DNA from: Gammaproteobacteria bacterium
GTDB taxonomy: Bacteria; Pseudomonadota; Gammaproteobacteria; Natronospirales; REEB76
Length of the DNA stretch: 64,000 bases
NCBI GenBank assembly: GCA_028870845.1
Contig: JAGWOR010000002.1
Coordinates: forward strand, 1-64,000
Direction: 5' to 3'
Shown: positions 1-10,044 of the stretch, one piece after another
Position numbering within the stretch: the stretch's first letter is position 1
Layout: each line of letters opens with the position of its first letter
The notes under the pieces: generated by a model
Database searches by the model: none
Told to the model about the DNA's origin: nothing
What the model saw: the letters and a program-made list of their open reading frames with translations, nothing else
Translations under genes and position numbers: made by a program

Positions 1-974
1 AATACCGTAGGCCTGGGTTCTCTGGGTTGCAAAAATGCGGTCAGGTAACTTTGAATAACCTGTTCCAGGGGCAGGCCGTTGCTGGATAGGCGGATTTCGG
101 GGAAATTCCTGGATATCACTGCAATGGTCTGCTGGGTTAATGCCTGATAGTCGGCATAACCATCATGGCTCTGCGCGTATGCAGATGCGATCGAACGCCA
201 ATTATGGGTAAAGTCCGCGAGCAGCAACTCAAGCTCTCCAATCCTGGGATGCGTGCTGTTGGCTTTTCGCAGGTCGGGAATCAGTTCCTGAATAACGCCG
301 CGCACGGTGTCTGGATGGGCGATGGCATCCAGATTATGCTGTTCAATGGCCAGCTCGGCCTTTTTGGCCGGCTCATGCGCGATCAATCTTGGTTTCAGAT
401 TATGATCACCGCCGGGCGCCCGCGCAGGCATGAATAATCCGCTCGATACCAGGCGCCAGAATGCGGCGGTACCGACCGTGTCGATCACCAGGTGTATTCG
501 GGTAGTTTGGGTATGATTCAGGACGTAGTGCGGCCGCCAGTTGTCGAATATCCAGGCTTCGCCCGCGGCCATGTGTACTTCCGTGCCATCGCATACAAAC
601 CTGACGCCGGGGTTCGTGATGATCGGGACATGAATTCGAATGTGGTCATGCCAGTAGTAGGCAATATCCGAATGCGGCTTGACTTCGGCGCCGGGGGCAA
701 GCCGCATGAGCCGCGAGCGTCCGACGATGGTGCCGAAACTGGCAAACACCTGCATAAGATAGGGGCAGTGTTGCAGTCTTGGTGTTGCCGCCATGGGACC
801 GTATGAATCGTCATTGTCAGTGCCGCCATGCGAGACCAGTATCAATGCGGAATTGCCTGGGTAATCCTGAGGATGGACCCGCCACTCAGTCTCAGGAAAC
901 TGCAGGGCTTCTGCCTGCAGAATCCCGGCATCGAATACAATAGGCAGCTTTGCAAATGGGCTGGGGAGTCGCAT
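1..974 (-). CDS. Aspartyl/asparaginyl beta-hydroxylase-like Fe(II)/2OG oxygenase (3' end beyond window)
   Basis: The reverse strand is open from an ATG at 974 to the window edge, so about 324 residues are visible and the C-terminus is missing. Residues about 65-165 form a double-stranded beta-helix typical of the Asp/Asn beta-hydroxylase family (PF05118). Visible signatures are KPHSD (H101, D103), RIHVPI (R113, H115), RPHYVLNH (H149, H154) and RIHLVID (R159, H161), that is, an iron-binding HxD, a distal His and a likely 2OG-binding Arg. Residues 170-324 follow with no domain I recognise. The gene is divergent from a second oxygenase of the same type at 1084, separated by 109 bases. Family members hydroxylate Asp/Asn or other peptide side chains; the substrate here is unknown. 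Confidence 0.85.
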   Translation of the reverse strand, partial: MRLPSPFAKLPIVFDAGILQAEALQFPETEWRVHPQDYPGNSALILVSHGGTDNDDSYGPMAATPRLQHCPYLMQVFASFGTIVGRSRLMRLAPGAEVKPHSDIAYYWHDHIRIHVPIITNPGVRFVCDGTEVHMAAGEAWIFDNWRPHYVLNHTQTTRIHLVIDTVGTAAFWRLVSSGLFMPARAPGGDHNLKPRLIAHEPAKKAELAIEQHNLDAIAHPDTVRGVIQELIPDLRKANSTHPRIGELELLLADFTHNWRSIASAYAQSHDGYADYQALTQQTIAVISRNFPEIRLSSNGLPLEQVIQSYLTAFLQPREPRPTV

Positions 975-1083
975 GGTTCAGGTGATGTAGTCGCTCAGGT
1001 ATTGCAGTATATTCAACATGTTACGTTAACACCATGATTATTTACAGTACCGGGCATATCCACCGGCTGCCGGATAGAAGCAT

Positions 1084-1707
1084 ATGAGCGTCCAGTTTGA
1101 TAAACGCAACCACATCGTTGCTTGCCGGCGATTGCCGCGTCAGATCGACATTGCCGCGTTACAGCATGAGGTTGCTGCAATCCCTGCCGTTGCCTGGACT
1201 GGCCAGCGTGCCCCTGTGCACCGCGAAACGGTGTCGGTTTTTCTCAAGGGTTATCCGCCGATGCAGCATGTTGAAGGCGATCCGGAACGTCCGCCACTGA
1301 GCACATGCCCGTATATACGCCGGCTGATTTATGGCTTATTGAGAGGAAATCCCGGGAAATGTCTGCTGGCTTCGCTGCAACCGCGGGGCATTGTTTATCC
1401 CCATACGGACGCCGCCAATGGTTATTTTATCGGTTCCTATCGCATTCATATCCCGGTTTTTACCAATCCCGAAGCCCTGGTGTTCTGCAATGGAAGGTTT
1501 TTCCATATGCGGGCAGGGGAAATCTGGTTAATCAATAATCTGGCTCCGCATGCGGTGATCAATGATCATCCGACCGAAAGCCGGATACACCTGATTTATG
1601 ACGTGTTTCCTGATGAAGAAACCGTGGGACTGATAGACAGTTTACCGGAGGAAGCCGGGATAACGAATCCCAGCCTGTTGGCCAGGCTGAAGGCCAGCGT
1701 CGGTTGA
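1084..1707 (+). CDS. Aspartyl/asparaginyl beta-hydroxylase-like Fe(II)/2OG oxygenase
   Basis: This 207-residue protein is a compact single-domain member of the PF05118 fold. The iron-binding HxD is PHTD (H107, D109), followed by YRIHIPV (R120, H122), the distal His in APHAVIN (H156) and a 2OG-side RIHLIYD (R167, H169). Its motif order matches the divergently transcribed gene ending the window's left edge, so the two look like diverged paralogues. There is no signal peptide, so it probably acts in the cytoplasm. The start is ATG at 1084, preceded by a weak purine stretch. It converges on a sulfotransferase gene 24 bases downstream. The substrate cannot be told from sequence. Confidence 0.85.
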   Translation: MSVQFDKRNHIVACRRLPRQIDIAALQHEVAAIPAVAWTGQRAPVHRETVSVFLKGYPPMQHVEGDPERPPLSTCPYIRRLIYGLLRGNPGKCLLASLQPRGIVYPHTDAANGYFIGSYRIHIPVFTNPEALVFCNGRFFHMRAGEIWLINNLAPHAVINDHPTESRIHLIYDVFPDEETVGLIDSLPEEAGITNPSLLARLKASVG

Positions 1708-1731
1708 TTCAGGATCAACATACCATGGAAC

Positions 1732-2436
1732 CTAGAATGTATACCCGAATTGCTCGATATAATCGCGCTCCCGGTCCGCGATCAGTTGCATGAGCGGTTG
1801 GGAATAATAATTCCGGTATTCCGCATGTACGGAAGCATTCACGGCCGCGCCGGTGTTGATTTCATGACGCATCGCGGGAGACACCAATAGTCCGTGCTGG
1901 GTGAGCAGGCCCGCGAGTTCCTGGCGCAGGGATTCGTAGCGCCCAAACGTCACCCCATGGATTTTGCCTTCGACCTGAAACATATACCGCCAGATCCAGC
2001 TGAGGTAGCCTCGATTGGGTTCCTGCATGCTTGCCATAATGCTGCTGGTGATGCCGCTGCCCAGGTTGTTATCACGGTTTTTGGGAAGTTGATTTGCGAT
2101 CTCCATGCGCAGGGGCTGATGATCCTCGTCTGCCAGCATCACGAGGTTCGCAATCGTTTTCGTGAAATCAAGGGATCCATGTGCGGATACGGCCCGGTAA
2201 ATGGGGTTGCGCTCGGGTGCTGCGTGATTAAAAGCATACCAGGATACGTACCAGTCCCAGGGGTTACGTACATGTCCGAGCACGGGTAAGGTGCGCAGCG
2301 CGAGTGGCGCCTCGGAGAGGGGCAAGTGGTATCCGATGCGCGTTGCTCCCGGTATAAATCGCAGCAGCAACCGGTTCACAAACTGTCCGCCTGTCTTGTG
2401 CAGGTGAACAAACAGCATCGAGGGAGTTTTGATCAT
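1732..2436 (-). CDS. PAPS-dependent sulfotransferase family protein
   Basis: This 234-residue protein has the sulfotransferase fold signatures. HLHKTGGQF near residues 11-19 is the 5'-phosphosulfate-binding loop, and HVRNPWDWYVSWY near 55-67 is the 3'-phosphate-binding motif, with R57 and S65 as the likely phosphate contacts. Such enzymes move sulfate from PAPS to a hydroxyl or amine. It is the last gene of a reverse-strand trio with the TPR-AspH oxygenase upstream (17-base gap) and another sulfotransferase before that, so cotranscription is likely. That pairing suggests sulfation of a hydroxylated product, which is inference. There is no signal peptide. The carbohydrate sulfotransferase-like or Sulfotransfer_2 family is the most likely assignment. 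Confidence 0.8.
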   Translation of the reverse strand: MIKTPSMLFVHLHKTGGQFVNRLLLRFIPGATRIGYHLPLSEAPLALRTLPVLGHVRNPWDWYVSWYAFNHAAPERNPIYRAVSAHGSLDFTKTIANLVMLADEDHQPLRMEIANQLPKNRDNNLGSGITSSIMASMQEPNRGYLSWIWRYMFQVEGKIHGVTFGRYESLRQELAGLLTQHGLLVSPAMRHEINTGAAVNASVHAEYRNYYSQPLMQLIADRERDYIEQFGYTF

Positions 2437-2453
2437 TATTTAAGAATGGATAA

Positions 2454-3773
2454 TCAGACTTCGAATTTTCGGTTGAATTCTCCTACTGCCTGCACCAATG
2501 TGGTCAGGCCGCTGCGTTCCGCGGGGCTCAGTAATGGGTTCCAGATCTCAAAGATCAGCACCGCCCGCAACTGGTCGCTTTTATTCCAGGCTTCATGCTG
2601 GAAGCTATCGTCAAATACCAGGCATTTTCCTTCCGTCCAGGTGCGGGTTTCGTAGCCAACCCGGATTGCGCACTGATCAGGAACCGCCAGCGGTAGGTGC
2701 ACTGCCAGTTTGTAATTGGCCACGCCATGGTGAGGTGGAATGTGCGTCCCGGGGCGTAGTATCGAAAAGAACGCTTCAGCTGCATGACCGGGGATTTTGA
2801 TCAGCGGCAGTCCGCTTAATATATCTGCGGTGACCGGGCAGCGTTTGCAATTTTCGGTGATTGGCTCTCCGCCGCGGTATAGATGATACGAGCTCCAGTC
2901 TTTGGAATGATTTAATTCGCTCCATTGGCGCGTATCTTCGCCTTCAATGTTAACGTAGGCTTCAAGATCTTCAGGATGAGCCAGCAGGGAATCTAATTCA
3001 CGCCGTATTTCCGTGTGCCGGATTTCCAGTTCATGCATCCACTTGAAATCCCGAGTATCAAAAAACGGCCTGGGCTCAACATCGGGCATGTACAACCAAT
3101 CCGGGTGTTGCAGGGCATGCAGGTATTCGGGCGTCGTGAGTCCCGATTTGATCCTGGCGGCTTTCAGCACCCGTCTCATGGGCTGTTCGCCATGTTCGTC
3201 CATATTTTTGGCAAGCGCTGCAGTGAAATAATCATATTTGAGTCCGTACAGCGCGGCAGCCGCGTTTCTGACCAGTTCGCGTTTGCTAGCGGGGATTCGA
3301 CTGTCAGCAAGCGTAGCGTTTACTGATGGCAGTAATTTCAATGCGCGGGCATATGCGGTGATGGCTTCGTCCTTTCTGCCGGCCTGCAGGTGGATGTTGC
3401 CCTGGTAGATCCAGGAGTAGATAAAATCTTCGCGTATGCTTGTGGCATTCTGGAAACAGCGCAACGCGCTTTCCGGATCTTTCTCCGTCAGAAGCAGGAT
3501 GCCGATATTTTGATGAATAATCGGCCGCTTGGAATCCACTTCCAGAGCGCGCTCATACAGCGCCAGCGCACGCGCACTATCGCCTCTCTCCATCGCGCGT
3601 GTGGCCAGAAAATTCAGGGATCGGATGTGATAGGGCGCAGCATCCAGTATCTGTTCATATATTTTTTCAGCATCCGCGTAGTTGCCGTTCTTGGCAAGCT
3701 GACGCGCGCTTTCTGTCAGGGTGTGGATGTGCCATCCCGGTGTACCGGGTTCTGGTATAGCTTTGCGATTCAT
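2454..3773 (-). CDS. TPR-repeat protein fused to AspH-type aspartyl/asparaginyl beta-hydroxylase
   Basis: The protein has 439 residues. The first ~165 form tetratricopeptide repeats (for example YADAEKIYEQIL and ARALALYERALEVD), and residues ~265-415 form an AspH-type hydroxylase domain. The C-terminal domain aligns by eye with animal ASPH: PHHGVANYKLAVHLPL (H348, H359), VFDDSFQHEAW (H393) and RAVLIFEIWNP (R403). As in animal ASPH, the usual acidic iron ligand after the first His is absent (H-x-G). The TPR-plus-catalytic layout also mirrors ASPH, where the TPR part helps bind the peptide substrate. It lies between two sulfotransferase genes on the same strand, with gaps of 42 and 17 bases. 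The start is ATG at 3773. Confidence 0.88.
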   Translation of the reverse strand: MNRKAIPEPGTPGWHIHTLTESARQLAKNGNYADAEKIYEQILDAAPYHIRSLNFLATRAMERGDSARALALYERALEVDSKRPIIHQNIGILLLTEKDPESALRCFQNATSIREDFIYSWIYQGNIHLQAGRKDEAITAYARALKLLPSVNATLADSRIPASKRELVRNAAAALYGLKYDYFTAALAKNMDEHGEQPMRRVLKAARIKSGLTTPEYLHALQHPDWLYMPDVEPRPFFDTRDFKWMHELEIRHTEIRRELDSLLAHPEDLEAYVNIEGEDTRQWSELNHSKDWSSYHLYRGGEPITENCKRCPVTADILSGLPLIKIPGHAAEAFFSILRPGTHIPPHHGVANYKLAVHLPLAVPDQCAIRVGYETRTWTEGKCLVFDDSFQHEAWNKSDQLRAVLIFEIWNPLLSPAERSGLTTLVQAVGEFNRKFEV

Positions 3774-3815
3774 AGGCGTGGGTATCTGTTGAGCATGCGT
3801 CAGGAATGCAGGGTG

Positions 3816-4871
3816 TTAAAGTTGTGTTGTTTGTTGTTCGATGCCGCTGACTGGTTTGGCTTTCAGTAAATCTGCCGCCCATGCCATGGTTTCTTCAATT
3901 TGCGTGCCGAATTCATCAATGATAACGCGATTTTCCCGTTCCCGGAATTCCAAGCCGTATTCATATCTGGGATCCTTGGCGTTTGTATTCCAAATGTCAC
4001 CGTTGATCACTTGCACGAAATGCTCATAGTCCAGGCCAAGCTGCAGCCAGTTTGAGGCGCATTCCAGCTTGACGGCGGGCTCTTTCAGCAGCTTCCGTGC
4101 ATCGAGTACGCGCAGGCGCTGTGGCCAGCTAGCCAGTAATTGCAGGAAATGCAACATCTGCGCATGCCAGAAAACCGCCGCCGCACGCAGGTGAGGAAGC
4201 TGAGCGGGGATGATATCCGGAAAATCATTCTTATAGTTGACGAGTGTGGCGGCTTCGGATGCAAGCCATGGTATTTTCTGTTTGGTATCGTCGGTTTTCT
4301 TCAGGTTTGATATGAGGAAATCCCTCAAATCCGTATAAAGAAGAATACCGCGGGATGCAGGAAGGGCATTCATTACATCGTCAATTAAATTATTCGCAAG
4401 GTTTGTGGGTTTTATTAGTATGCTTTCGCCGTCTGCGTAAGTCTTGTTCAACAATGTCAGCATCAGGTCGGTAAGCGACTGTCCCTTTTGATTCCATTCC
4501 CCAGACGCCTGCATGCGTGATTTCACCGAGCTCATCTGAAAAAAAATCCAGGGTTCGCGGATTACCAGAGTTTTGCCCGGTGATTGCAATGCCCTTGCCA
4601 GCAAGGTTGAACAGCAGAATGAAATATGAAATATGAATTGAATGGGGGCCTGTGACGCCTGTATGTGGCCATAAGCTCTTATAACCTCGTCGACTGGCAA
4701 AGCCACGAGCCGTTCCCTGGTGTGCTGGATTCTATTGTCCAGGTATGTTGATTTAAGGAAGGTATCCTTGGTCACCTGGAGAAAATGGAGTTCTGCGCGA
4801 TCCACGTCCATCCTGTAAAGCATGAAATCAGGATTTTGCACGACGTCTCTGGCGTCCAATTGGTCGTTCAT
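3816..4871 (-). CDS. Sulfotransferase-like P-loop protein
   Basis: This 351-residue protein has a P-loop-like phosphosulfate-binding segment, FHISFCCSTLLARAL (residues ~81-95), followed by LVIREPW, and a later YTDLRDFLISNLK that fits the 3'-phosphate-binding motif. These match the wider sulfotransferase superfamily, although it is more diverged than its neighbour at 1732. It is the first gene of the reverse-strand trio and is divergent from the Sel1-P4H gene, with 76 bases between start codons. No signal peptide or membrane segment is seen. The target is unknown. An alternative is a nucleotide-binding protein of the same fold with another function. Confidence 0.68.
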   Translation of the reverse strand: MNDQLDARDVVQNPDFMLYRMDVDRAELHFLQVTKDTFLKSTYLDNRIQHTRERLVALPVDEVIRAYGHIQASQAPIQFIFHISFCCSTLLARALQSPGKTLVIREPWIFFQMSSVKSRMQASGEWNQKGQSLTDLMLTLLNKTYADGESILIKPTNLANNLIDDVMNALPASRGILLYTDLRDFLISNLKKTDDTKQKIPWLASEAATLVNYKNDFPDIIPAQLPHLRAAAVFWHAQMLHFLQLLASWPQRLRVLDARKLLKEPAVKLECASNWLQLGLDYEHFVQVINGDIWNTNAKDPRYEYGLEFRERENRVIIDEFGTQIEETMAWAADLLKAKPVSGIEQQTTQL

Positions 4872-4947
4872 TTACAGGTTCCTGTTTCCATCGCATACTG
4901 TAAAACTACCGTTGCATATTAGCGTTCACTGTCCATGGAATCCATAT

Positions 4948-6240
4948 ATGCATGACGAAGCCGACACAAAAACAATCACGCTCAGGGCCAGTGCGGGTGA
5001 CAATGCCGCACAGGCGCAATTAGGGTTACGCCTGTTCCAGGCGGGCCAAATTCAAGAAGCTTTGCCGTGGATTGAAAAAGCCGCTGCTGCCGAACAGGTA
5101 TTGGCTCTGAACCTTCTGGGGGTGATGCACCTGAATGGCGTTGCCGTGCCATTGGATATGCGCCGTGCCGCAACCTTGCTTAGCCGCGCATCGGAACTCG
5201 GTTTAAGGGAGGCAAACTACACCCTTGCCGGAATGCATGCCGCCGGATTCGGTGTGACAGCCGATCCGCGGCATGCCTGGCAGTTTTTGATACGTGCATG
5301 CCGGAGCGGCCATCCCCCGGCACTCAGGGCCGCTGGCGTCTTATATTTGATTGCCAGGCCCGGAGATATGAATGGGGTCCGCTTGCTGCGAATTGCTGCT
5401 GAGCGTGCCGATGGCCTGGCTCAGGCAATGCTGGCCGTGTGGCTGGCACAAAATGGATCCGCTCAGGAACTGGCTGAAGCCAGGTACTGGCTGGATCAGT
5501 CAGGCGCACACGGCCGGATCGCCGGACATTTGAATCCGGATTTACCGCCCGCCGGCGTGGCGCCGGACAGACCGATGGGTGAACCGGATTGGGAACGGCT
5601 GGAGCCCGTGATTCCTCCGACTGAGCCTGCGGGAAAATCGCAAACGCTGATTAAGAATGTGGTATATGAAATTCATGATGCACTGCCGTATTTGGCTTGT
5701 GAGTACCTGATTACCCTGTCGGCTCCACGCCTGAAGCCTTCGATGGTGGTGGATCCGCAGACCGGCAGGCAGGCGGTGAACCCTGTCAGGAGCAGTCATT
5801 CAATGTATTTGCCGCCAAATATGTGCGACTGTGTCGTCAGTTATGTAAGCAGCCTGATGGCGGGACTGGCGGAGCTGCCGGCATCCCATTCCGAACCCAT
5901 ATCCATCCTGCATTATTCTCCCGGCCAGGAATACAAACCCCACCAGGATTATTTTGTCGGCACAGCCGCTGGTGATACCCGCATTGAACAGCAGGGCGGA
6001 CAACGCAAAGTGACGGTATTCACCTATTTAAGCGAGGTGCAGGAAGGCGGAGAAACGGATTTTCCCGAACTTCACCTGCGGATTCGGCCAGCGCGGGGGA
6101 AAGCGGTTAAATTCATGAATCTAGACGCTGATGATATGCCCAATCCTATGACCCTGCATGCCGGCCGCCCGGTCATACAAGGTGAAAAGTGGCTGGCTAC
6201 GTTCTGGTTTCGCCAGCGCCCATTCGTATGGGAAATTTAG
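4948..6240 (+). CDS. Sel1-repeat protein fused to prolyl 4-hydroxylase-type oxygenase
   Basis: The protein has 430 residues when started at ATG 4948; the frame opens further upstream, but that stretch overlaps the divergent gene and has no signature. Residues ~20-190 are Sel1-like helical repeats (for example ALNLLGVMHLNGVAVPLD and ANYTLAGMHAAGFGV). Residues ~235-425 form a P4H-type Fe(II)/2OG domain with HYSPGQEYKPHQDYF (iron ligands H332 and D334), the GGETDFPEL loop, distal TLHAGRPV (H404) and K414 for 2OG. This domain hydroxylates prolyl residues in family members. The repeat half probably binds a partner or substrate, parallel to the TPR half of the neighbouring AspH fusion. It converges on the next oxygenase with a 3-base gap. 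Confidence 0.88.
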   Translation: MHDEADTKTITLRASAGDNAAQAQLGLRLFQAGQIQEALPWIEKAAAAEQVLALNLLGVMHLNGVAVPLDMRRAATLLSRASELGLREANYTLAGMHAAGFGVTADPRHAWQFLIRACRSGHPPALRAAGVLYLIARPGDMNGVRLLRIAAERADGLAQAMLAVWLAQNGSAQELAEARYWLDQSGAHGRIAGHLNPDLPPAGVAPDRPMGEPDWERLEPVIPPTEPAGKSQTLIKNVVYEIHDALPYLACEYLITLSAPRLKPSMVVDPQTGRQAVNPVRSSHSMYLPPNMCDCVVSYVSSLMAGLAELPASHSEPISILHYSPGQEYKPHQDYFVGTAAGDTRIEQQGGQRKVTVFTYLSEVQEGGETDFPELHLRIRPARGKAVKFMNLDADDMPNPMTLHAGRPVIQGEKWLATFWFRQRPFVWEI

Positions 6241-6243
6241 CCT

Positions 6244-6948
6244 TCAGCAGGACAGAAACCAGCCCGTGATGCTGTAGCGGATGCCGGTGGCGAACGGCGC
6301 CACGAAAGAAACACAATGTGGCGCCGGAACCCGAAACAGGCTGAGTGCGTTGAAGCGTGGCACATAGCTGTCGATGACTTTGCCTTCGCTGTCCATGAAT
6401 TGCAGCAACCCGCCCCAATGGGCCTGCCAGTTTTTTGTCAGGCTGACGACATAGGCCAGTTCACGGCCACGCTCCACGTAATCATCAGTATGCTGCTTTA
6501 GAAAATGGCCGGGCATGTAGCGTGTTGCCTGGGCATTGGCTCGAATGATATTTTCCACTCCGCTGACCTTGCGTATGAATTCCAGGCATGGCTTGCTGTT
6601 CAGGAATTCCGTCGCCCGATGCAGATATAAGCCTGGATCACGCTGTTCCCGGTATGCGGTCACCATCATGTAGGTGTTAAACGCGAACTGATATCCCTCG
6701 CGTGCGGTGCTTTGGATATTTTGCATGAACGCCATGCGTTCAGCCTGGCTCATGGACTCAAATACGGCCTTTGGCAGGGTGGCGCCGCTATTGCCCTTCT
6801 GATACGCCAGGTCCCAGCGCACCTGCCTGGCCAGGCATTCGTGCAGTGCTTCCGCCTGATCCGGCACCAGGAAATCGGAAATCTGCAGCCGTTGTGCAAG
6901 GGCAAAATCAGCATGCAGCCTTTCACTGTCTAAATTCGTATTAAGCAT
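6244..6948 (-). CDS. Fe(II)/2OG oxygenase, proline-hydroxylase-like (COG3751 type)
   Basis: The protein has about 234 residues from ATG at 6948; a GTG at 7011 in the same frame would add 21 residues but has no ribosome binding site either. The C-terminal half carries FLKQHTDDYVERG (HxD iron ligands), the WGGLLQF loop, FNALSLFRVPAPHCV (distal His) and GIRYSITGWF (Arg for 2OG), matching soluble prolyl-hydroxylase-like enzymes. The N-terminal half (residues ~20-150) is helical and includes FQFAFNTYMMV-like text near 6690. It ends 3 bases from the convergent Sel1-P4H gene and is divergent from sucA. The substrate is unknown. Confidence 0.8.
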   Translation of the reverse strand: MLNTNLDSERLHADFALAQRLQISDFLVPDQAEALHECLARQVRWDLAYQKGNSGATLPKAVFESMSQAERMAFMQNIQSTAREGYQFAFNTYMMVTAYREQRDPGLYLHRATEFLNSKPCLEFIRKVSGVENIIRANAQATRYMPGHFLKQHTDDYVERGRELAYVVSLTKNWQAHWGGLLQFMDSEGKVIDSYVPRFNALSLFRVPAPHCVSFVAPFATGIRYSITGWFLSC

Positions 6949-7005
6949 GGTTTTAGGAATGTGGCCGGGAGATTGCGACCGCATTATAGGCAGCCAGGCG
7001 GCGAC

Positions 7006-7033
7006 TTTCACAGGTGGCGGACGATGCTATAAA
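7006..7033 (+). promoter_or_regulatory. Candidate sigma-70 promoter of sucA
   Basis: TTTCAC at 7006-7011 and TATAAA at 7028-7033 are separated by 16 bases and lie about 120 bases upstream of the sucA start. The fit to the consensus is good at -10 and fair at -35. It is a sequence match only. Confidence 0.35.
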
Positions 7034-7149
7034 ATAGTGTTTTACAGCATCTTCCCCCATGGCAGACGCAGGCCCACTCACGGCATTACCCGGCAAACCA
7101 CACTAGACACGGCCAGCCAGCTGGGCGTGGGATTCAACATTAAATCGCA

Positions 7150-10044
7150 ATGAACAACTCTTACCAACAGCGGTATGTGACAACGCCGTTCTCCGGCAGC
7201 AATGCTGCATACGTTGAATTCCTGTACGAACAGTATATGGAAAATCCAGAATCGGTCCCCAAGGAGTGGGCGGATTATTTCCGCGAGTTGCAGGCAAGCA
7301 CGCCCGGACCAAAGGATACCCCCCGCAGCCCGGTGGAATTGGAGCTGGCAATCCGGGCCCATACCGGCCGTCTCAATCAGCGAGCATCTGCAATGCCGCT
7401 GCATCCCCTGGCCGCTGAGAAGCAGGCTGCCGTCATTAATTTGATCGAGGCGTATCGGGAGCGCGGACACTTGCGCGCCAGACTGGACCCGCTTGAGCTG
7501 TACGTGCCGCTGCCGGTTCCGGATCTGGACCTGGAGTTTCATGGACTGGGCAAGCCGGATATGGACACGGTATTCAGCACCGTGTCACTCAGCGGGCCGG
7601 ACCGGATGCCGCTGCGGGACATCTGGGCGATCTTGCAGGACAGCTACTGCCGGACACTGGGTTTCGAATTCATGCATATGAGCAACAGTGAAGAACGCCT
7701 GTGGATCATTCAGCGGATCGAATCGGCGCGCGCCAATGCCCGGCTTACACCCGACGAGAAACGCATGATCCTGGATTCGCTGATTGCCGCCGAAGGTATG
7801 GAGAAATACCTGCATACGCGCTATGTGGGACAAAAGCGCTTCTCCATTGAGGGCGGCGATGCGCTGATTGCCATGCTGCACGACCTCATCAAGTACGCCG
7901 CTGGCTTGCACGTGCAGGAAACCGTGATTGGCATGGCTCATCGTGGCAGGCTGAACGTGCTCATCAATATGCTGGGCAAGTCACCGCGTGAGATCTTTTC
8001 GGAATTCGAAGGCAGCTATGATCCGCAGCACGAAACCGGTTCCGGAGATGTGAAATACCATCTTGGGTTTGCCTCGGATTTAAAGACGGTCAATGGCAAT
8101 ATGCATGTGGCATTGGCGTTCAACCCGTCGCATCTGGAGATTGTGAATCCGGTGGTTGTGGGTTCAGTGCGGGCCCGCCAGGACCGGCGCGGGGATGCCA
8201 GCGGGGAAATCGTACTGCCGGTGCTGATTCACGGTGATGCGGCCTTGTCAGGGCAGGGCGTGGGCATGGAAACGCTGCAGCTTTCACAAACCCGGGGTTT
8301 CCACACCGGCGGCACCGTTCACATCGTGCTCAACAACCAGATCGGCTTTACCATCAGCAACCCGCACGATGCCAGATCCACGCCGTATTGCACGGATATC
8401 GCCAAGATGCTGGAAGCGCCGGTAATCCACGTGAACGGCGATGACCCGGAAGCCGCGATTTTTGCCACGCGCCTGGCTCTCGATTACCGCCAGAAATTTC
8501 ACAAGGATGTATTCATCGACCTGGTTTGCTACCGGCGTCACGGTCATAACGAAGCGGATGAACCTGCGGCTACTCAGCCGATCATGTACCGGAAAATCCG
8601 TGCACATCCCACTACCTTGGAATTGTATGTGCAAAATCTCCAGCAACAGAATCTGGCGGATAAGGCCGCGGTAGACGCCAAACTGATCCAGTATCGCGAT
8701 CAGCTGGATGCCGGCAAACCGGTTGCCCCGAGCATCGTGACCCACGTGCCGAACCAGTACACGGTTAACTGGTCGAGGTATCAACAGCGGCATTGGCACG
8801 AAGAGGTAAATACCCAGCTTGCGGATAATCAATGCCAGGAGCTGGCCGAGGCGATAAACCATGTGCCGGATAATGTTATCCTGCATCCCACCGTTGCTCG
8901 CATATATGATGCGCGTCGCAAGATGGCGGCAGGCACGTTGCCAATGGACTGGGGGTTCGCCGAGTTGCTGGCATATGCCAGCCTGGTGACCAGTGGCTAT
9001 CCGGTGCGCCTGACCGGGCAAGATACGGGCCGCGGTACTTTTTTCCACCGCCAGGCCGTACTGCATAATCAGAAAGATGGCAGCACCTACATCCCGCTTG
9101 AGCACATTGCCAAGGACCAAAAACCGTTCATGGTGGTGGATTCGCTGCTTTCCGAAGAAGGCGTCATGGGCTTCGAATATGGCTACAGCACCGCAGAGCC
9201 CGATGCGCTGGTGATCTGGGAGGCCCAGTATGGCGATTTCGCCAACGGCGCGCAGGTGGTTATTGATCAGTTCATTTCTGCAGGCGAGGCCAAATGGGGT
9301 CGTCTGTGCGGGCTCGTGCTGTTTCTCCCGCATGGTTACGAAGGCGCAGGTCCCGAGCATTCTTCCGCGCGGTTGGAGCGTTACTTGCAGTTGTGCGCAG
9401 AGCACAACATGCAGGTCTGCATACCATCCACCCCCGCGCAATTTTTCCATATGCTGCGTCGCCAAGTCATGCGACCATACCGCAAACCCCTGATTGTCAT
9501 GACACCCAAGAGTTTGTTGCGGCACAAACTCTCTGTATCGCAGTTGCGGGACCTTACACATGGACGTTTCCATGTGGTTATTCCTGAGATTGACGATCTC
9601 CAGACCGGGCGCATACGGCGTGTAGTGTTCTGCTCCGGCAAGGTCTATTACGATCTGCTGGAAGCCAGGCGTGCGGACAAAAGCATAGATGACATAGCGC
9701 TGGTGCGGCTTGAGCAGCTTTATCCATTTCCCCATGAGGAATATGCAGATATCATCCAGCGCTATTCACAGGCCCGCGATATCGTTTGGTGCCAGGAGGA
9801 ACCGCAGAATCAGGGCGCCTGGTATGAAATCCGGCATCGTTTACAGGACCCGCTCACGGCATTGCACACGCTGCGCTACGTTGGCCGTCCGGCATCCGCA
9901 TCTCCAGCGGCGGGTTACGCGCAGCTGCACAAGCAACAGCAGGCTGCGTTGATCAGTGCAGCGCTAAGCAAAGGCGCAGTGCCGATGCCGGCAGACGCGC
10001 CTAAAATGAAAGCCAAAGCCAAAGCCAGAGCTGAATCGGAGTAG
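7150..10044 (+). CDS. sucA: 2-oxoglutarate dehydrogenase E1 component
   Basis: This 964-residue protein is the thiamine-diphosphate-dependent decarboxylase of the 2-oxoglutarate dehydrogenase complex, which converts 2-oxoglutarate to succinyl-CoA in the TCA cycle. Its length is close to the usual ~930-940 residues. Seen features are the N-terminal FLYEQYMENPESVP segment, the thiamine-binding core with IGMAHRGRLNVL and HGDAALSGQGV, the NNQIGFT loop, and the C-terminal transketolase-like half with GQDTGRGTFFHRQAV. The C-terminal tail is rich in Lys and Ala. The start is ATG at 7150. sucB follows after 2 bases, so the two are translationally linked. 2OG is also the cosubstrate of the oxygenases next door, though this adjacency may be chance. 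Confidence 0.98.
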   Translation: MNNSYQQRYVTTPFSGSNAAYVEFLYEQYMENPESVPKEWADYFRELQASTPGPKDTPRSPVELELAIRAHTGRLNQRASAMPLHPLAAEKQAAVINLIEAYRERGHLRARLDPLELYVPLPVPDLDLEFHGLGKPDMDTVFSTVSLSGPDRMPLRDIWAILQDSYCRTLGFEFMHMSNSEERLWIIQRIESARANARLTPDEKRMILDSLIAAEGMEKYLHTRYVGQKRFSIEGGDALIAMLHDLIKYAAGLHVQETVIGMAHRGRLNVLINMLGKSPREIFSEFEGSYDPQHETGSGDVKYHLGFASDLKTVNGNMHVALAFNPSHLEIVNPVVVGSVRARQDRRGDASGEIVLPVLIHGDAALSGQGVGMETLQLSQTRGFHTGGTVHIVLNNQIGFTISNPHDARSTPYCTDIAKMLEAPVIHVNGDDPEAAIFATRLALDYRQKFHKDVFIDLVCYRRHGHNEADEPAATQPIMYRKIRAHPTTLELYVQNLQQQNLADKAAVDAKLIQYRDQLDAGKPVAPSIVTHVPNQYTVNWSRYQQRHWHEEVNTQLADNQCQELAEAINHVPDNVILHPTVARIYDARRKMAAGTLPMDWGFAELLAYASLVTSGYPVRLTGQDTGRGTFFHRQAVLHNQKDGSTYIPLEHIAKDQKPFMVVDSLLSEEGVMGFEYGYSTAEPDALVIWEAQYGDFANGAQVVIDQFISAGEAKWGRLCGLVLFLPHGYEGAGPEHSSARLERYLQLCAEHNMQVCIPSTPAQFFHMLRRQVMRPYRKPLIVMTPKSLLRHKLSVSQLRDLTHGRFHVVIPEIDDLQTGRIRRVVFCSGKVYYDLLEARRADKSIDDIALVRLEQLYPFPHEEYADIIQRYSQARDIVWCQEEPQNQGAWYEIRHRLQDPLTALHTLRYVGRPASASPAAGYAQLHKQQQAALISAALSKGAVPMPADAPKMKAKAKARAESE

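Follow-up and report, generated by a model that had tools for sequence, protein, structure and literature searches.

A conserved oxygenase-sulfotransferase island around a TonB-dependent receptor, with possible modification of the receptor, in a gammaproteobacterium

The window analysed here is a stretch of 64,000 nucleotides from a Gammaproteobacteria bacterium (assembly GCA_028870845.1, contig JAGWOR010000002.1, positions 1 to 64,000 of the forward strand). Near its beginning three genes lie on the reverse strand, and a first-pass annotation had described them as an operon in which a tetratricopeptide repeat (TPR) protein with an AspH-type hydroxylase domain is flanked by two sulfotransferases. 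The three reading frames are present as claimed, encoding proteins of 234, 439, and 351 amino acids, and the gaps between them are 17 bases (between the first and second gene listed below) and 42 bases (between the second and third), again as claimed. Their GC content and third-position GC are close to those of neighbouring genes. The genes are:

1732–2436, minus strand: STx18, a candidate Sulfotransfer_2-like sulfotransferase (weak profile match, distant homologue, and weak fold list)
2454–3773, minus strand: TPR-AspH, tetratricopeptide repeats and an aspartyl/asparaginyl beta-hydroxylase domain (PF05118, 168.4 bits; TPR_2, 71.3 bits)
3816–4871, minus strand: STx10, a sulfotransferase-fold protein of a family without a Pfam match (predicted structure and fold search)

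These three genes are the visible part of a larger conserved island. The window begins at the contig end and the island runs beyond both ends of positions 1732–4871. We compared gene order among nine family loci, and the complete codirectional run of three genes was found in only two of them. The three-gene operon therefore did not hold up as the unit; the unit is instead an island in which about seven oxygenase and about seven sulfotransferase domains surround a TonB-dependent receptor. In G008, a related genome that is 99% complete, the island (L155 and L067) starts with three TPR-sulfotransferases, the receptor, a PF13759 oxygenase, a PF13640 oxygenase, and a further TPR-sulfotransferase, and it continues with an AspH-sulfotransferase fusion, STx18, TPR-AspH, STx10, a PF13661-type oxygenase, a Sel1-repeat protein with a prolyl-4-hydroxylase-like domain (Sel1-P4H), and sucA. 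The gene families in G008 were assigned in part by Pfam and in some cases by similarity to a scanned member. In the window's own genome (G000) the island extends over three contigs. C42 carries three TPR-sulfotransferases and the receptor; C43 carries two oxygenases, a TPR-sulfotransferase, and probably the C-terminal half of the fusion (L051:1-690); and C12 is the window. The ends of C42 and C43 overlap by an exact 132 bases. C43 and C12 each carry one part of the fusion gene, about 63 residues of which are absent, and the join of these two contigs is one that we infer. Over C42, C43, and C12 the island has seven oxygenase and seven sulfotransferase domains. Genes were called by simple scripts, which missed STx10 in L140, L142, and L146; these copies were found separately.

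The linkage of these gene families is more than would be expected by chance. In six genomes, 33 of the 43 long PF13469 sulfotransferase genes (frames of at least 500 residues) have a TonB plug domain no more than 12 kb away, compared with 3.3 expected under even placement. For this, 58 of 67 PF13469 rows were used; two second gene pieces and seven frames below 500 residues were left out, and the set of 43 was unaffected. The receptors beside the 33 genes are all of the class of about 1000 residues, and a PF13469 neighbour is present for 12 of 25 large receptors and for none of 25 small receptors. Seven of the remaining ten genes (one on G000:C43, three on G007:C11, one on G007:C32, and two on G011:C17) are on contigs that have a receptor fragment or that overlap a receptor-bearing contig by 130–132 bases. 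Across 369 genomes of the class, STx10 (counted at E ≤1e-28) occurs in 10, full-length TPR-AspH (at least 345 of 445 model positions matched) in 12, and both in 6. TPR-AspH is thus found in 6 of the 10 STx10 genomes and in 6 of the 359 others (Fisher p 5e-8), and in all six genomes with both genes the two are neighbours in a single locus. The 12 genomes contain 14 full-length TPR-AspH loci; a sulfotransferase-family gene is within 10 kb at 10 of these, and a TonB receptor is within 11 kb on the same contig at 7. With 33 of 43 genes so placed and a Fisher p this low, a chance neighbourhood is unlikely, and conservation of the neighbourhood far above chance bears out the functional linkage of TPR-AspH and sulfotransferases that had been proposed. 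The sucA border is retained in two families, f1 and f121 (G135, G250), which argues that the island is old.

The other island genes in the window, together with the border gene, are:

3–974, minus strand: AspH-sulfotransferase fusion, N-terminal 324 residues, truncated by the contig end (PF05118, 68 bits)
1084–1707, plus strand: small AspH-family 2-oxoglutarate (2OG) oxygenase, HxD type (PF05118, 45.2 bits; homologues in L056, L058, and L060)
4948–6240, plus strand: Sel1-P4H, Sel1 repeats and a prolyl-4-hydroxylase-like 2OG-Fe(II) oxygenase (PF13640, 56.7 bits; Sel1, 43.4 bits)
6244–6951, minus strand: 2OG-Fe(II) oxygenase, OG19 (PF13661, 74.0 bits; PF13640, 58.2 bits)
7150–10044, plus strand: sucA, 2-oxoglutarate dehydrogenase E1 (four E1 families in Pfam)

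The window part of the fusion corresponds to residues 1–318, and the L051 part to residues 382–608, of a 614-residue homologue in L064; an HxD...H and R motif is visible. The Sel1-P4H reading frame opens at 4822 and 4948 was chosen as the start. This gene is in the same position beside sucA in relatives, and we regard sucA as a conserved border of the island, not as a member. In G001 the island's receptor and its PF13759-type oxygenase are separated by a group II intron reverse transcriptase (L068:9710-11071). In distant relatives, TPR repeats in the same neighbourhood also form fusions with a methyltransferase and with a PF13759 oxygenase (L138:2875-4377 and L137:16621-18468). A subtilase-like PKD-domain protein of 768–796 residues adjoins the TPR-sulfotransferases in L155 (G008:C31) and L156 (G003:C26), both Pfam-confirmed, and at the matching site of L050 (G000:C42) there is a 772-residue gene. 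Another receptor type is found at L049 (G000:C8) and L079 (G001:C10), with three TPR-sulfotransferases, by Xaa-Pro dipeptidase and aldo/keto reductase genes (L049 Pfam-confirmed).

The identification of the middle gene as TPR-AspH was correct. PF05118 (Asp_Arg_Hydrox) matches residues 253–413 with its 168.4 bits against a cut-off of 22.6, and the TPRs are N-terminal to this, within residues 18–150. Among solved structures, chains of human ASPH come closest to the catalytic domain (E ~1e-30). Residues H348, H393, and R403 are invariant in eight homologues and align with the iron-ligand histidines and the C-terminal 2OG arginine of ASPH, which we take to bind iron and 2OG, respectively. At the position of the second 2OG-contacting arginine of human ASPH, presumably R688, alignments with ASPH place an alanine in the window protein. 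In most of the features tested TPR-AspH is thus an ASPH-type protein, and it is predicted to hydroxylate Asp or Asn in polypeptides. A paralogue (L052:10041-10940 on G000:C45, with homologous loci) is beside the genes for DNA polymerase III delta prime, yceG, and fatty-acid synthesis; no sulfotransferase was found there.

Because Pfam was silent on both flanking proteins (no family at E 0.001, and none of the sulfotransferase families when the threshold was relaxed to E 10), their labels were examined separately. For STx10 we aligned 19 homologues, obtained an AlphaFold model (predicted local distance difference test score, pLDDT, 90.4), and searched solved structures. Results from this showed that the top fold matches of the model are tyrosylprotein sulfotransferases (TPSTs), with Z 16.1–15.4 over 227–243 residues; the best was 5wrj_C (Z 16.1, root-mean-square deviation, rmsd, 3.7, 235 residues aligned). 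Carbohydrate and small-molecule sulfotransferases rank below the TPSTs, with Z 13.5 or lower. Foldseek gave a tick TPST as its best match (E 4.2e-6), and 20 of 21 matches at E ≤0.001 are titled sulfotransferase; the remaining one is Teg14, which we take to be a sulfotransferase also. A PDB sequence profile search with STx10 gave no match, and a profile comparison with the TPR-sulfotransferases gave a probability of 70%. The predicted fold places STx10 firmly in the sulfotransferase superfamily. A second, lone copy of STx10 occurs at L141:9610 (G000:C16) and L143:7742 (G008:C14), without island partners in the 18–20 kb inspected.

The label of STx18 is moderately secure, from a profile and a distant homologue. 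Its profile matches SULT4A1 (E 0.0018), and a distant homologue in another family (L077:13370-13999) matches PF03567, Sulfotransfer_2, at 45.7 bits against a cut-off of 22; STx18 of the window itself has no match to PF03567. The STx18 model is poor (pLDDT 65.5), and the weak fold list obtained with it opens with 19 rows of sulfotransferases, the best match being to a heparan 2-O-sulfotransferase fusion (Z 5.5, rmsd 4.8, 148 aligned). Profile comparison with the TPR-sulfotransferases was weak, with a probability of 9%. We assign STx18 to the sulfotransferase superfamily with moderate confidence. Neither STx10 nor STx18 was matched in the plasmid collection.

In all six loci that have an STx18 homologue, this gene comes after TPR-AspH on the same strand, and because this order and strand are conserved, cotranscription of TPR-AspH and STx18 is well supported. 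An STx10 homologue neighbours TPR-AspH in six of six loci, on the same strand in two (the window and L062) and divergently in four. Cotranscription of all three genes is therefore predicted only in some members. A promoter and terminator scan of positions 900–7200 gave 5 and 7 sites, compared with 5.9 and 6.8 in shuffled sequences, which is chance level; a terminator-like stem of nine pairs at 1691–1669 on the minus strand is inside that level.

The dense set of enzymes beside the receptor hints at an undescribed decoration of a surface protein, probably including the addition of sulfate. We tentatively propose, at somewhat less than even chances, that the island is dedicated to post-translational modification of the TonB-dependent outer-membrane receptor of about 1000 residues. 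In this proposal, cytosolic 2OG/Fe(II) oxygenases (TPR-AspH, the small AspH, the AspH-sulfotransferase fusion, Sel1-P4H, and three others) would hydroxylate side chains, and cytosolic sulfotransferases would then attach sulfate, in part probably onto the new hydroxyls. The TPR and Sel1 repeats, which suggest binding of extended polypeptide, would hold the unfolded substrate, and after modification the precursor, for which the receptor itself is the likeliest candidate, would be exported with its altered loops outward. The cosubstrates 3'-phosphoadenosine 5'-phosphosulfate (PAPS) and 2OG are cytosolic. Because of this, and because no obvious signal peptide was seen on the island enzymes by eye, the chemistry is most likely cytosolic. 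The receptor precursor is proposed as the substrate because, in the gene neighbourhood, the receptor is the recurring central protein that is not an enzyme; the subtilase-PKD protein is a second candidate target or partner. The first-pass annotation had suggested a protein or peptide substrate for both activities, and we retain this as a best guess. Coupled hydroxylation and sulfation is plausible, and the fusion of an AspH domain to a PF13469 domain in a single polypeptide supports it. A more specific version, in which ASPH-like and prolyl-hydroxylase-like oxygenases hydroxylate the receptor before export and TPST-like sulfotransferases cap the hydroxyls with sulfate to give a surface-receptor code, seems to us rather unlikely as it stands.

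Several results weigh against modification of the receptor. In 25 of 50 receptors chosen for a comparison of composition (Y, D, N, P, S, T, C, and acidic-flanked Y), the 17 linked to sulfotransferases did not differ from the 8 others (all p >0.05). The supply of sulfate donor is also in doubt. In the window's own assembly (87.6% complete) we found no CysD, ATP sulfurylase, or convincing adenosine 5'-phosphosulfate (APS) kinase, despite 11 PF13469 matches; the APS-kinase match there scores 21 bits and covers a third of the model. Of 12 related genomes, 6 clearly have one or more of CysD, ATP sulfurylase, and full APS kinase, as do 4 of the 6 genomes with a completeness of 90% or higher, and all three are absent from G001 (94%) and G004 (91%); one of these searches did not include G011. 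In the alignment of STx10 the canonical 3'-phosphate arginine, which we take to belong to the R-x7-S motif, is absent: YTDLRDFLIS is opposite RDPxDVxLS of the TPR-sulfotransferases, with the serine kept. In one alignment of this comparison (A4) the first row is by mistake a fragment of the second. Because this arginine is missing, the PAPS binding mode and catalysis of STx10 are only putative. Four of the 14 full-length TPR-AspH loci (G000:C45, G013, G276:C140, and G363) have neither a sulfotransferase nor a receptor in the stretch examined. Finally, an AspH relative lies inside a nonribosomal peptide synthetase (NRPS) cluster on an Alteromonas plasmid.

This last observation favours another target for the enzymes, a small molecule or peptide ligand such as a siderophore-like compound or a ribosomally synthesized and post-translationally modified peptide (RiPP), which the receptor would then take up or release. 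We consider this unlikely, while giving it real weight. With an NCBIfam model for a putative nonproteinogenic amino-acid hydroxylase, which has a cut-off of 300 bits, the small AspH protein gives a weak match of 34.2 bits. The nearest printed parallel that we found is a table in PMC10040529, which lists a lasso-peptide B2 protein, two sulfotransferases, an aspartyl beta-hydroxylase, PqqD, and asparagine synthase-related proteins under nearly consecutive cluster numbers. These entries make a peptide substrate for a hydroxylase-sulfotransferase pair credible and keep a RiPP product in play. We recognised no NRPS, lasso, or precursor gene among those island genes that were examined, although no search by name was made for lasso maturation families, and 222 small intergenic reading frames from 14 loci yielded only unconvincing pairs and triples and no credible conserved precursor. 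For a single small molecule, a set of about seven oxygenases and about as many sulfotransferases, with TPR and Sel1 repeats, would also be excessive.

Membrane lipids, altered by acyl 2-hydroxylation of the OlsC/LpxO type and then sulfated, are an improbable substrate. TPR-AspH does match the NCBIfam models for OlsC (125.1 bits) and LpxO (60.1 bits), but these scores are well under the cut-offs of 450 and 500, which weakens a lipid hydroxylase reading. The nearest solved relatives of its catalytic domain are chains of human ASPH, and the fold of STx10 is nearest to peptide sulfotransferases. It is also conceivable, though quite doubtful, that the enzymes share a receptor-centred neighbourhood while hydroxylation and sulfation occur on separate targets or residues, so that the chemistry is uncoupled. 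Consistent with this, L049 and L079 have TPR-sulfotransferases without AspH genes, and TPR-AspH also occurs without sulfotransferases, as in the paralogue by DNA polymerase III delta prime, yceG, and the fatty-acid genes. Against it, the AspH and sulfotransferase domains are joined in one protein, and the corresponding genes remain adjacent across families.

Modification of the receptor is the reading we prefer, and a receptor-centred island offers a short list of testable substrates that could reveal how bacteria tune or disguise their surface receptors. If true, there would be a hydroxylation-then-sulfation code on surface receptors, and part of its machinery would come from the STx10 family. 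The island also points to this sulfotransferase family, which goes unrecognised by Pfam. In open-licence PubMed Central text we found no description of a TonB-linked hydroxylase-sulfotransferase island. To our knowledge, very few cases of bacterial sulfation of ribosomally made proteins have been found, RaxST-RaxX among them, and we are aware of no function suggested for bacterial ASPH-like TPR-hydroxylases.

Comparison with known systems shows likenesses and differences. Human ASPH has the same combination of TPR repeats and AspH catalytic domain, and the histidine iron ligands and the position of the C-terminal 2OG arginine are kept. By contrast, the window protein is bacterial, is without endoplasmic reticulum targeting, has alanine at the R688 position, and has sulfotransferases and a TonB receptor as genomic partners. 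OlsC and LpxO belong to the same PF05118 superfamily, whereas TPR-AspH is far below their curated cut-offs, has TPRs, and occurs in a sulfotransferase and receptor context. The lasso-type set of Pontixanthobacter/Allopontixanthobacter also has an aspartyl beta-hydroxylase between two sulfotransferases; PMC10040529 gives annotations only, with adjacency read from the numbering, and the lasso maturation genes that it lists were not recognised in the window island. In Polymorphobacter megasporae, a plasmid-borne AspH gene whose match to TPR is faint adjoins a TonB-dependent receptor. Among sulfotransferases, TPST1 and TPST2 are the best fold matches of the STx10 model, but STx10 has 12–13% identity to them, no Pfam match, and no visible canonical 3'-phosphate arginine. 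It differs also from the bacterial RaxST in that no RaxX-like peptide was recognised beside it.

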